A stretch of 64,000 nucleotides of DNA from Actinopolymorpha cephalotaxi. GTDB lineage: Bacteria; Actinomycetota; Actinomycetes; Propionibacteriales; Actinopolymorphaceae. The stretch covers positions 2,812,850 through 2,876,849 of the forward strand of contig NZ_JACBZA010000001.1 of the NCBI RefSeq assembly GCF_013408535.1, read 5' to 3'. Shown here one piece after another: positions 6,331 to 20,596 of the stretch. The position numbers and the translations under genes were made by a program. Within the stretch, counting starts at the first letter, position 1; each line of letters opens with the position of its first letter. Below the pieces are notes generated by a model. That model saw only the letters and a program-made list of their open reading frames with translations, searched no databases and was not told the DNA's origin.

Positions 6331-7350
6331 CTACTTCGTGGCAGGGCTTTCCACGCCGCAGCCGCAGCTGCCGCGTATGACGACCTGCGTCTCGAGTACA
6401 CGATCCAGGGACACGTCGAGGTCGCCCTCGACGTGCCGCAACAGTTGACGCGCGGTCTCGGCGCCGAGCTCGCGCATGGGCTGGTGAACGGTGGTGAGGC
6501 CCGACGCCGCGAGCCCGGCCATGGAGATGTCGTCGAATCCGGTGACCGCGAGGTCCTGCGGCACCCGCAGCCCACGGTCCATGAGTGCGACGACGGCGCC
6601 CAGTGCGATCTCGTCGTTGGCACAGACGATCGCGTCCGGGAGTTCCTTCTGGTCGAGCAGCCGGCTCACGGCGATGAACCCGTTCGACTGTGCGAGACCG
6701 ACGCGGATCGGCTCACCCGGTGGGTCGGCACCGAGCCGCCGATGTGCCTGCAGGAAGCCCTGCCAGCGGTACGTCGTGTCCGAGGAGCCGTCGGGATTGC
6801 CGACGAAGACCAGACGTTCGTACCCGTGGTCGGACAACAGGTGGGTGGTGAGCCGCGCCATCGCGGCGAGGTTTTCCGTACGGATCGTCGGAACACCCAC
6901 CAGGGGGCCACCCGCGAGCAGCACCACCCGCTCACCTCGGTCGGTGAGCCGGCGGACCGCGTCCTCGGGGATGACGTCACCCATCACCGCGATGCCGTCG
7001 ACCCGATCCGCCATGTCCAGAACCATGTCGACCGACTGGCGCAGGAAATGCGTGCCCATGATGTGCACACTCACCTGCGCGTTCACGGCCTCTTCCTCGA
7101 AGCCGTTGATCACGTCGGAGTAGTAGGGCCCCGACAGACCGGGAAAGACGATTCCGAGGGCCCCGTGCCGCCGGTTTACCAGGGCACGGCCGAAGTGGCT
7201 CGGACGGAAGTTGTGCCGGTCGATCGCTTCCTGCACCTTCATCCGGGTGGCCGGCGAGACCTGGCCGACCCCCCGCGCCACGCGGGACACGGTCGCGATG
7301 GAGACGCCCGCGTCTCGCGCGATCTCGTGCAGGGTCGACCCTTTGCCCAT
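6331..7350 (-). CDS. LacI-family transcriptional regulator
   Basis: 339 residues. The N-terminal helix-turn-helix (about 5-60) reads TLHEIARDAGVSIATVSRVA and is followed by a periplasmic-binding-protein-like sensor domain ending in a Cys-rich tail (GSCGCG). LacI proteins bind palindromic operators and release them on binding a sugar. A dyad with the AAACGTTT core lies 26 bases upstream of its ATG, suggesting autoregulation. It is the first gene of the block that continues into the ABC importer and GH39-like hydrolase, so it probably controls them. No strong ribosome site precedes the ATG. Confidence 0.93.
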   Translation of the reverse strand: MGKGSTLHEIARDAGVSIATVSRVARGVGQVSPATRMKVQEAIDRHNFRPSHFGRALVNRRHGALGIVFPGLSGPYYSDVINGFEEEAVNAQVSVHIMGTHFLRQSVDMVLDMADRVDGIAVMGDVIPEDAVRRLTDRGERVVLLAGGPLVGVPTIRTENLAAMARLTTHLLSDHGYERLVFVGNPDGSSDTTYRWQGFLQAHRRLGADPPGEPIRVGLAQSNGFIAVSRLLDQKELPDAIVCANDEIALGAVVALMDRGLRVPQDLAVTGFDDISMAGLAASGLTTVHQPMRELGAETARQLLRHVEGDLDVSLDRVLETQVVIRGSCGCGVESPATK

Positions 7351-7375
7351 TGCGGTCCCGTCATGAATGCGGCAG

Positions 7376-7397
7376 TTGCGGTAAACGTTTGCAGCAA
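7376..7397. promoter_or_regulatory. Probable LacI-type operator
   Basis: A 22-base dyad centred between 7386 and 7387: TTGC at the left end, AAACGTTT in the centre, GCAA at the right end, with only two mismatched pairs. LacI-family operators characteristically have a central CG and A/T-rich flanks of this form. It lies 26 bases upstream of the LacI ATG at 7350. Confidence 0.65.
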
Positions 7398-7498
7398 CGT
7401 GTCGAGAAGATTAACGACATCACACGAACCCGCAAGACAAGCGTCCGGAACCGGACATCGGGTGAATCGGAGCATCATTCGCCCGTCACCGCAACGGG

Positions 7499-8035
7499 TC
7501 AGCGACTCCCGCCGAGGAGGCCGAGGTGGTCCAGCGCCCGGTAACCGCAGTCCTGGTCGGTGAGCTGTCCCCCGCGGACGTGCTCGACGAAATCCTTCTC
7601 GTCCAGCAGGACGACCTCGGTGAACTCCTCGGGGCCGGGGTCGGGTTCGGTCACCCACCGGCAACCGTCCGCGACCAGGAAGTGGCGCTGGACCTGGAAG
7701 TTCGCGGCCAGCCAGGTGGAGCCGAGGTAGGTCGTGGACGCGGGTGCGTAGCCGGTCTCCTCCAGCAGTTCCCGTACACCCGCCTCGACGACGTCCTCAC
7801 CCGGGTCGACGTGCCCGCCGGGGATCTCCAGCAGTGTCCTGCCCGGCCCGGCGCGGTACTGCCGCGCGATGACGAACCGCCCGTCGGTCGTCCGCGCGAC
7901 CACGGCGACGGCGTGCCCTCCGGTCAGGACGTCCCACTCCGACCGGTGTCCGTCCGGGAGGACGTACGTCCTGCGAGAGATCTTCAGCCAGCCGTCGTAG
8001 ACCGGCCGCTGTGACTCCAGCACCCACTCGTCCAT
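7499..8035 (-). CDS. Nudix hydrolase, ADP-ribose pyrophosphatase-like
   Basis: 178 residues. The complete Nudix box G-x5-E-x7-REUxEExGU is present as GGHVDPGEDVVEAGV followed by RELLEETGY. Upstream, the YDGWLKISRRTYVLPDG region matches proteins that cleave nucleoside diphosphates linked to sugars or similar groups with Mg2+. I start at the ATG at 8035 (MDEWVLESQ). The frame stays open further upstream, but that part runs antisense to the signal peptide of the divergent gene at 8184 and looks unlike protein. The exact substrate cannot be told. Confidence 0.85.
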   Translation of the reverse strand: MDEWVLESQRPVYDGWLKISRRTYVLPDGHRSEWDVLTGGHAVAVVARTTDGRFVIARQYRAGPGRTLLEIPGGHVDPGEDVVEAGVRELLEETGYAPASTTYLGSTWLAANFQVQRHFLVADGCRWVTEPDPGPEEFTEVVLLDEKDFVEHVRGGQLTDQDCGYRALDHLGLLGGSR

Positions 8036-8183
8036 CCGGCAGAACCTACCCGCCGGCCTGGTGGCGGCCGACGCACCCTCGCGACGCGCGGTCGTACGAC
8101 TCGCCTGACTGGGCAACGCGCCGCTGTGACCGATCCAGGAAAGGTCGCCGCCGAGGCTCTCCGGGTGCTGGTACGACTGAACG

Positions 8184-9035
8184 ATGATCTTGACGAGGTG
8201 GCGCGTACGCCGATGCGCCTGGCTGACATTCCTGCTCGCTGTGGTCTTCGCGCTCGCCTCACCTGTCGCGAACGCGGAGACCACGACGACCACGACCACC
8301 ACGACCCCCGCCACAGCCGCGGTCCGGCCGCAGTCGTACAAGCTGCTGCAGTTGAACCTGTGCCTGTCCGGGATCGCCGGCTGCTATGCGGGTACGCAGT
8401 ATCCGGCGGTCGTGGACGAGGCCATCGACAAGATCCGGACGAACGCTCCGGACGTCGCCACCCTGGTGGAGACGTGCAGCGGCGACGCGCAGCGGATCGC
8501 CGATGAGACGGGCTACCACCTGGCGTTCGGTGCCGTGATCTACAAGGGCGCGGAGTTGCCGTGCGTGAAGCCGACCGGCCGCGGCGTCTTCGGGATCACG
8601 GTCCTCACCCGCCGGCCGATCGCCTCGGTGGACGACGCGGCCTACCAGGCCCAGAACGGAAACGAGCAGCGCCGGCGCGTCTGCGCCACCACTGTCGACG
8701 GGGCGACCGCCTGCGTCACCCACCTGGCGGTCCGCGACGCCGACCCCGCCGGTCCGAACTCGGTGGCGAACGACGGCCAGTGCGCGGAGTTCGGCGCACT
8801 GCTTGCCGGCTACGCGTCCACCGGCAGGCCCGTGATCGCCGCCGGCGACATGAACCGGCAGACGAGCTGTGCGCCGGTCGGCTTCTGGAGCCGCCAGGAC
8901 AGCGCGGCTTCGCAGAGCCCGGGAATCCAGCACGCGTACGGCACCTACCGCTGGTTCCACCGTCCCGTCGCCACCACGCCGCCGATGACGTACTCCGACC
9001 ACGACGCGCTGCTGGTCACTTCGCTGTTCAGCTGA
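8184..9035 (+). CDS. Secreted endonuclease/exonuclease/phosphatase-fold protein
   Basis: 283 residues with an N-terminal signal peptide (LTFLLAVVFALASPVANA), followed directly by a run of nine threonines. The domain begins YKLLQLNLCLSG, has AAGDMNRQTSC in the middle and ends MTYSDHDALLV; these correspond to the N-, DxN- and SDH-type motifs of the Mg2+-dependent EEP superfamily (DNase I-like, sphingomyelinase-like). Several cysteines fit an exported protein. It may cleave extracellular phosphodiesters; the substrate is unknown. A TACGAC -10-like box ends 6 bases before the ATG and no ribosome site is seen, so the transcript may be leaderless. Confidence 0.82.
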   Translation: MILTRWRVRRCAWLTFLLAVVFALASPVANAETTTTTTTTTPATAAVRPQSYKLLQLNLCLSGIAGCYAGTQYPAVVDEAIDKIRTNAPDVATLVETCSGDAQRIADETGYHLAFGAVIYKGAELPCVKPTGRGVFGITVLTRRPIASVDDAAYQAQNGNEQRRRVCATTVDGATACVTHLAVRDADPAGPNSVANDGQCAEFGALLAGYASTGRPVIAAGDMNRQTSCAPVGFWSRQDSAASQSPGIQHAYGTYRWFHRPVATTPPMTYSDHDALLVTSLFS

Positions 9036-18989: not shown

Positions 18990-20459
18990 TCAGGGCAATG
19001 GCGACAGTTCGTGGTTCGCGGGCGGGGTGATCGCCGCCGGCTCCCGCTCGCCCGGCCCGACCTGCGCGGCCGGCCCGACCTGCGCGGCCGGGTTGCGTGG
19101 CCCGGCCACGCGGACCGGCTCGTGGATCTCGACGTACCCGCCGCTCGGCGTCCGTACGATCCGGCCGGTCTCCCGTCCGTGCTGGAGGACCTCCCGCTCG
19201 GCTCGCTGCAGTCCGAGGCAGATCCGCCGGGTGACGTCGAACCCGATCACCGGGCCGAGCACGACGAGCGCCTGCAGGATGTACATCAGCCACTCCACCG
19301 AACCGTGGAAGACCAGGGCGATCGTGTTGGCGCCCGCGGCGGCCCACAGCACGCCGTAGAAGACGATCCCGGCCACGCCGACGCCGGTACGGACGGGGTG
19401 CTCGCGCGGGCGCTGGAGCTGCTGGTGCTCCGACCTGTCCCGCGTCACTCGTTGTTCGAGGTACGGATAGGCGGCCAGCACCGCGAAGAAAAGCGTGCCG
19501 ACGAGCAGCGGAAGCAGGATGGCGACGGACCAGGTTCGTCCCAGCCAGCCGAACTCCCAACCGGGGGCGAGGCGAAGGGCGCCGTCGAGGAAGGCGAGGT
19601 ACCAGGTCGGGGTCGACCCGGCGGTTGCGCTGGCCGGGTCAGCCGGGCCGTACCGCCAGACCGGGTTGACGGTCAGCGCCGCGCCCATCGTGACGACCAC
19701 GCCGCTCACGATCAGGAACAGCCCCGCGCTCCGGACCAGGAACGTCGCGAGGTTCGTGCCCGGCCGCTCCCGTCCGGCCCACTGCGCGGGCTTACGGCGG
19801 AGGCCGAGAACCGCCATCGCCACGAAGACGATCACCAGGGCCGCGGGAAGAGCCACCACGTGTACGGGATAGAAGACCGCGGTGACGTCGCCGGGGGTCC
19901 GGCCGCCGAACAGCACCTGCGACGCCAGCCCACCGACGAACGGCGTCGCCGCGAGCACGCCGTCGAGGACCGCCATGCTGCTTCCGGACAGCAGGTCGTC
20001 GGGCAACGCCGAACCCGTCAGGCCGCCGCCCATCGCCAGCAGCAGCGCCGCGACCCCGAGCAGCCAGGTCCACTGCCGAGGCCTGCGGAACGCGCCGGTG
20101 AAGAACAGCCGCAGCAGGTACACCATCAGCGCAGCCGTCATCACCAGGGAACTCCAGTGGTGCACCTGGCGCATCAGCAGGCCGCCGCGTACCCCGACCG
20201 ACAGGTCCAGGGTGGACGCGAACGCCCGCGACATCTCCACACCCGTGAGCGGTGTGTACGGCCCGGCGTACGTCACCTGCTCCATCGACGGGTCGTAGAA
20301 GAACATCAACGCGACGCCGCTGATCGCGACCAGGACGAAGCTGAAGACCCCGATCTGGGCGAGCAGAACGGACAAGTCGTCCGGAAAGGCCCTTCTCCGC
20401 AAACCGGCCGCGATCCGGCCCGTCCGCGGCTGGTCCCAGGCCCTGAGCAACCGGCGCAT
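18990..20459 (-). CDS. Orphan cytochrome b (QcrB-like) missing both ligands of one haem
   Basis: 489 residues from the ATG at 20459, chosen for GGGAGG 6 bases upstream (a GTG at 20492 is also in frame). It resembles actinobacterial QcrB along its length: RQVHHWSS (His-100), LFFTGAFRRPRQ, LPDDLLSG, FYPVHVVALP (His-200), a Qo-type PTWY at 284-287 where PEWY or PDFY is usual, and QRPREHPVRTGV near the C-terminus. About eight or nine membrane helices. His-100 and His-200 would bind one haem. The partner positions 14 and 15 residues later are Tyr-114 and Met-215 instead of His, so the second haem should lack its usual ligands. No QcrA, QcrC or oxidase genes are nearby. Function unknown; perhaps a one-haem membrane electron carrier. 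Confidence 0.85.
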   Translation of the reverse strand: MRRLLRAWDQPRTGRIAAGLRRRAFPDDLSVLLAQIGVFSFVLVAISGVALMFFYDPSMEQVTYAGPYTPLTGVEMSRAFASTLDLSVGVRGGLLMRQVHHWSSLVMTAALMVYLLRLFFTGAFRRPRQWTWLLGVAALLLAMGGGLTGSALPDDLLSGSSMAVLDGVLAATPFVGGLASQVLFGGRTPGDVTAVFYPVHVVALPAALVIVFVAMAVLGLRRKPAQWAGRERPGTNLATFLVRSAGLFLIVSGVVVTMGAALTVNPVWRYGPADPASATAGSTPTWYLAFLDGALRLAPGWEFGWLGRTWSVAILLPLLVGTLFFAVLAAYPYLEQRVTRDRSEHQQLQRPREHPVRTGVGVAGIVFYGVLWAAAGANTIALVFHGSVEWLMYILQALVVLGPVIGFDVTRRICLGLQRAEREVLQHGRETGRIVRTPSGGYVEIHEPVRVAGPRNPAAQVGPAAQVGPGEREPAAITPPANHELSPLP

Positions 20460-20596
20460 CGGGTGCCTCCCATGGTGATCGACGTTCGTCACCCCTAGGA
20501 CAGGGCGGCCGGTGAGAACGTGACGCCCGATCGGCGTTCCGGGCGGAGACCTTCCTCACATCCGCGCCCGAAGGTCGCCCGCGGGACATCCCTTGG

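Follow-up and report, generated by a model that had tools for sequence, protein, structure and literature searches.

The locus raises the question of what role is left to a QcrB-like cytochrome b that stands apart from respiratory genes and has lost both ligands of one haem. Two haems per cytochrome b are regarded as essential to the Q cycle, and cytochromes b without haem bH are known from laboratory mutants.

Sequence and Predicted Structure of the Protein

The gene was located on the minus strand of the window (the whole analysed stretch of 64,000 nucleotides from Actinopolymorpha cephalotaxi) at 18990–20459. This ORF runs from the ATG at 20459 to the stop at 18990 and encodes a predicted orphan QcrB-like one-haem cytochrome b of 489 aa. 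A ribosome-binding site, GGGAGG, precedes the ATG at 20466–20471 (minus strand), and both the site and the start were also present in three other Actinopolymorpha (L112, L113, and L114).

In the phmmer search, the protein matched the QcrB of C. glutamicum, M. smegmatis, and M. tuberculosis from residue 15 or 22 to residue 450, with E values of 1e-101 to 1e-107, which bore out the full-length likeness claimed in the first-pass annotation. Nine distinct sequences of solved actinobacterial QcrB were matched. The Pfam matches were PF13631 (Cytochrom_B_N_2, 121.9 bits) and PF00033 (Cytochrome_B, 58.6 bits), and the score against NF050120, the NCBIfam model of actinobacterial QcrB, was 499.2 bits, just below the cut-off of 500. 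The AlphaFold2 model had a pLDDT of 82.8 and was confident in the membrane part. Its top structural matches were actinobacterial QcrB chains with Z of 39–44, indicating a cytochrome b fold. Judged from its sequence, the window protein is a cytochrome b of the QcrB type by descent. It lacked several features of a functional QcrB, namely the four His, the Qo motif together with Tyr153, Glu38, and the linkage to qcrC and qcrA.

Haem-Ligand, Qi, and Qo Columns

The ligand columns were read from the alignment to the nine solved QcrBs (all codons given here are on the minus strand). Both ligands of haem bL were kept, and His100 in helix B (20160–20162) and His200 in helix D (19860–19862) were invariant in 79/79 rows. 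The bH-ligand columns held Tyr114 in helix B (20118–20120; His117 of C. glutamicum) and Met215 in helix D (19815–19817; His219 of C. glutamicum), the latter also followed by parsimony. The residues were those named in the first-pass annotation, and its statement that both losses strike one haem proved correct, the haem being bH on the cytoplasmic side. The possibility that other His residues had been moved away from the ligand columns by misalignment was rejected, as the solved-QcrB alignments, the profile HMM, and MAFFT concurred. Moreover, Gly135, the helix-C glycine on the bH side, was retained in the window protein; here and below, the assignment of glycines to the bL or bH side is our assumption from general cytochrome b knowledge and the 14-residue spacing.

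In C. glutamicum QcrB, Glu38 is the Qi menaquinone ligand, and Tyr153 and Asp295 are Qo-site residues (PMC8795186). In the window protein, the alignment placed Gln35 (20355–20357) at the Glu38 column and Ser150 (20010–20012) in place of Tyr153. The Qo motif at residues 284–287 (19599–19610) was PTWY, the canonical form being PD(W/V/F)Y, and PDDLLSG was kept at residues 153–159 (19983–20003); both motifs had been read in the same way before. At the Glu38 column, Glu was found in 30/30 canonical rows versus 0/42 rows of the clade that lacks the bH His pair (the bH-less clade, described below).

Gene Context and Selection

The neighbours of the orphan gene encode an SSF sodium:solute symporter, two small proteins (one a membrane protein, the other without Pfam matches), a methyltransferase, and a GH106 protein, which have no relation to respiration. 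Annotation of these neighbours agreed with the earlier remark that qcrA, qcrC, and oxidase genes are absent next to the window gene. The same genome contains a second QcrB at G000:C1:1597987-1599300, with 48% identity to the orphan and all four His. This canonical gene adjoins a Rieske (QcrA) gene, at 1599468-1599752 and far from the orphan, and oxidase genes. Upstream of the orphan, the sequence at 20472–20560 was conserved among four Actinopolymorpha, with the blocks GATGTGAG-AAGGTCTCCG, GTCACGTTC, and CTGTCCT, and is possibly a promoter.

In a comparison of five Actinopolymorpha, the orphan had a dN/dS of 0.26–0.39, far below 1, and the gene is thus under purifying selection. It was about 2–3 times that of the canonical QcrB of the same species, and the constraint on the orphan is therefore weaker. 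A pseudogene or a sequencing error was ruled out by the intact orthologues in many genomes and by the dN/dS. The first-pass annotation had proposed selection for a one-haem protein rather than random decay. The part concerning decay was supported by these dN/dS values, while the one-haem state is the best inference from the ligand columns.

Orthologues in Actinopolymorphaceae and Kribbella

A profile of the orphan was run against 294 genomes of the order. It separated the orphans (730–901 bits) cleanly from canonical QcrB, which did not score above 587; a single intermediate lay at 613. The orthologues (group A) were present in 5/6 Actinopolymorpha, one further member of the family, and 29–30 of the 38 Kribbella genomes. 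No further group-A members were found outside Actinopolymorphaceae and Kribbella in 395 genomes of the class at the threshold used, in a scan that could miss divergent members scoring under canonical QcrB.

The bL His pair was retained in all 36 distinct group-A proteins, and the helix-D bH His was gone in 35 of them; the one protein that kept it (L146) carries Tyr at the helix-B position. Thus, no member has a complete bH His pair, and the four-His orthologues that would make this copy a simple degenerate were not found. The helix-B position was His in most Kribbella and Gln in two Kribbella; in the Actinopolymorpha group, it was Tyr in four, His in A. pittospori, and Leu in G007. The joint conservation of Tyr and Met, which the first-pass annotation had suggested, did not hold. 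The Tyr/Met pair was confined to two Actinopolymorpha genomes, and the relatives had Tyr/Lys, Tyr/His, His/Met, Leu/Leu, His/Gly, His/Ala, His/Ser, His/gap, and Gln/Ala. Group A was also changed at the Qo site, with Ser/Thr for Tyr153 and Thr/Ser/Ala for Asp295. All 103 canonical-scoring QcrB matches were H-H-H-H, and the departures all belonged to the bH-less clade.

The gene contexts of group A varied between loci, with synteny conserved within Actinopolymorpha. In a subset of Kribbella (L269, L271, L272, L274, L276, and L278–L283), genes for an Rrf2 regulator, a cupin, and a phospholipase D-like protein were near the orphan, and an XdhC-family gene was downstream, facing it. One Kribbella copy (L123, genome G027, 6956–8266) had an in-frame deletion of about 45 residues, by which the region from helix E to the Qo motif was gone. 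In addition, one Actinopolymorpha contained a divergent third QcrB-like protein (L124, 6932–9256; G002:C1:3483446-3484843) with 34% identity and four His kept, and its gene adjoins cytochrome c and haem-copper oxidase genes.

Phylogeny of the bH-Less Proteins

A tree of 79 proteins was built from an alignment stripped of all four ligand positions, the Qi and Qo columns, and the bH-glycine columns; the Tyr/His member L004 was left out as a near-copy. All 49 non-redundant bH-less proteins formed one clade with 100/100 support, found in 100% of 200 bootstrap trees, and a smaller tree agreed with a single bH-less clade. Separate origins for group A and a second group from other genera (group B, below) were not favoured by either tree.

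Parsimony over the 49 rows gave zero changes for the bL ligands and the bL-side glycines (Cg51 and Cg152). The helix-B bH ligand was lost in five events, and the helix-D bH ligand was lost once and then went through 16 residue changes, making 22 changes for the two bH columns together. The Qi Glu38 was gone in 49/49 proteins, with one loss and eight residue changes. The helix-C bH-side glycine (Cg Gly138) was lost in 48/49, the sole exception being the window protein, and Val, Leu, or Ala stood in its place in nearly all members. What the clade conserves, on these alignments, is a perfect bL site and a bH His pair that is never complete.

The losses at canonical-invariant columns were also compared between the two sides of the protein. 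In group B, 18/36 columns were lost on the bH/Qi side versus 6/58 on the bL/Qo side (Fisher p = 5e-5). For group A, the numbers were 13/36 and 12/58 (p = 0.15), without significant bias because the Qo site had changed too. The C-terminal region (after Cg310) kept about 93% of the canonical-invariant residues in groups A and B alike.

Groups B and C

Group B occurred in 27/60 genomes of one genus and 5/20 of another. The main genus probably belongs to Microbacteriaceae, judging by the likeness of a sister genus to Cryobacterium. The ligand columns of group B were His-Gln-His-Arg (with Trp or Leu at the last in a few), and PDWY and the Qo Tyr were retained. Group C consisted of one divergent protein that had Asn and Ile at the bH columns. 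A phylum scan with a mixed profile returned mostly canonical genes and no new family members.

An NDH-2-type gene was near the group-B cytochrome b in 9/27 loci, usually directly upstream and overlapping. An NDH-2-like gene overlapping or directly upstream of a bH-less cytochrome b gene was observed in L122, L197, L245, L246, L251, L262, and L263, and in L197, L198, and L262, an SdhA-like flavoprotein gene was also close by. Furthermore, an ECF sigma gene extended by SnoaL_2, which is the ECF41 layout, was near the cytochrome b gene in eight group-B loci and likewise in group C; one group-A locus had a nearby sigma gene of which region 2 alone was matched. The ECF41 promoter consensus was taken from a previous study (PMC3426412). 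An exact TGTCACA-N16-CGTC was found directly upstream of the cytochrome b gene in eight group-B loci (L195, L196, L247, L248, L250, L253, L254, and L259), and the chance expectation for a looser form of the motif over 60 loci was 0.46. No such promoter was found before the window gene or before the other group-A cytochrome b genes.

Proposed Function and Alternative Explanations

The window gene probably belongs to a distinct actinobacterial QcrB paralogue family that carries only haem bL and is without the Q-cycle branch. The tree and the parsimony counts show shared ancestry. In an ancient QcrB duplicate, the helix-D bH ligand and the Qi glutamate that binds menaquinone were lost, and the bH site afterwards drifted or was refilled (Gln/Arg in group B), the bL ligands and bL-packing glycines staying fixed. 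The product would retain the membrane cytochrome b fold with one bis-His haem near the outer face. Electrons would not cross the membrane to the Qi site, and therefore no Q cycle would be expected. Its most likely task would be non-energy-conserving redox or quinone-interacting work at the outer membrane face, where haem bL would exchange electrons with menaquinol or with a partner protein; a guess would be that this happens under stress. In group B, the co-encoded NDH-2 would feed haem bL through menaquinone. The window subgroup has lost the Qo Tyr and Asp as well, which makes menaquinol oxidation by these proteins doubtful; it would need another mechanism, or the haem may instead have a sensing role or relay electrons to a partner protein. 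A broader proposal, which we offer as tentative, is a natural "half cytochrome b" family in several actinobacterial families, in which the bH/Qi side was dismantled once in the distant past, the bL side was retained, and the protein may serve as a stress-controlled menaquinol outlet or relay outside the Q cycle. In group B, it would be controlled by ECF41 and work with NDH-2; the evidence for both links was obtained from group B and not from the window gene. Several observations stand against the bL-only reading: most Kribbella keep the helix-B bH His, Gly135 is kept in the window protein, the losses in the window subgroup are not restricted to the bH side, the dN/dS exceeds that of canonical QcrB, and one Kribbella copy has a deletion through the Qo motif.

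The same helix-B His would fit a two-haem protein whose bH pocket still binds haem via unusual ligands, with the inner haem retuned or gas-binding. The ligand sets would be Tyr/Met here, His/Met in A. pittospori, Tyr/Lys in A. rutila, and a five-coordinate single His in Kribbella. Lys and Met can stand in as haem b ligands in membrane cytochromes, where an H212K revertant was functional and a His-Met haem b was cited for the B. subtilis succinate:quinone reductase (PMC4807273). However, the helix-D residue drifts through its 16 changes, with Gly, Ala, Ser, Leu, and Val among the replacements as well as gaps, and Gln/Arg is fixed in group B. With Val, Leu, or Ala at the helix-C bH-side glycine nearly everywhere and the Qi glutamate absent from every member, retention of the inner haem seems unlikely; the His/Met and Tyr/Lys members may still bind a second haem. 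The well-kept C-terminal region and the intact qcrB in the same genome would suit a variant subunit of the bcc-aa3 supercomplex, which would pair with canonical QcrB or, in some conditions, take its place. In such a dimer, one half would be without the Qi branch and electrons would cross by bL-bL transfer, by which engineered asymmetric dimers do turn over (PMC4330944). None of the group-A loci examined had qcrCAB/ctaCDEF linkage, however, and group A has lost Tyr153 and Asp295, so the Qo site of the orphan half would also be impaired; we consider such a subunit improbable.

A relic, that is, a qcrB duplicate slowly decaying after the loss of its role, would account for the dN/dS above that of canonical QcrB, the Kribbella copy with an internal deletion, and the patchy presence in Kribbella. 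But dozens of species have an intact reading frame, the dN/dS is about 0.3, the bL ligands and glycines show no change over the 49 non-redundant rows against 22 at the bH ligand columns, and the proteins form a single ancient clade, which leaves decay very unlikely.

Comparison with Known Systems

The clade shares with actinobacterial QcrB (C. glutamicum 7q21 and M. smegmatis 9gy6/6adq) the full-length homology, the bL His pair, PDDLLSG, the C-terminal region, and the Pro and Tyr of the Qo motif. It differs in having no bH His pair and no qcrA/qcrC linkage, in the replacement of Glu38, and, in nearly all members, in that of the helix-C bH glycine; group A differs further in the replaced Qo Asp and Tyr153. 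The closest laboratory counterpart concerns H212 of R. capsulatus cytochrome b, which we take to be the helix-D bH ligand. In the H212N mutant, an engineered "bH knockout", haem bL still undergoes reduction (PMC4330944). It resembles the clade in that a bH ligand is gone and the bL site is untouched. However, H212N is one laboratory substitution in a complete bc1, whereas the clade is natural and ancient and is also without the Qi residue and linked partners.

The paralogue family is real, and no description of it was found in the literature searched. No natural one-haem cytochrome b of the Rieske type was found there either, most subscription papers lying outside the coverage of the search. 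A natural bL-only clade would be a ready system for studying the haem bL/Qo side alone, including quinol oxidation, superoxide formation, and bL-bL transfer. Many actinobacterial genes annotated as QcrB or "cytochrome b" would then not encode subunits of respiratory complex III.

The group-B loci resemble the ECF41 modules with COE genes in that they adjoin genes for an ECF41-like sigma factor, an NmrA epimerase, and an FAD oxidoreductase. In the ECF41 study, COE genes (and the sigma genes) were the only detectable targets (PMC3426412). In contrast to those modules, cytochrome b would be an additional target in group B, as judged from the promoter match, and ECF41 targets would extend past the known COE genes. 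In one Kribbella locus (L119), an exact ECF41 promoter was observed about 74 bases before the cytochrome b ORF, on the opposite strand and directed towards a divergent NmrA-like gene, which is another hint that group A, too, may be linked to ECF41.
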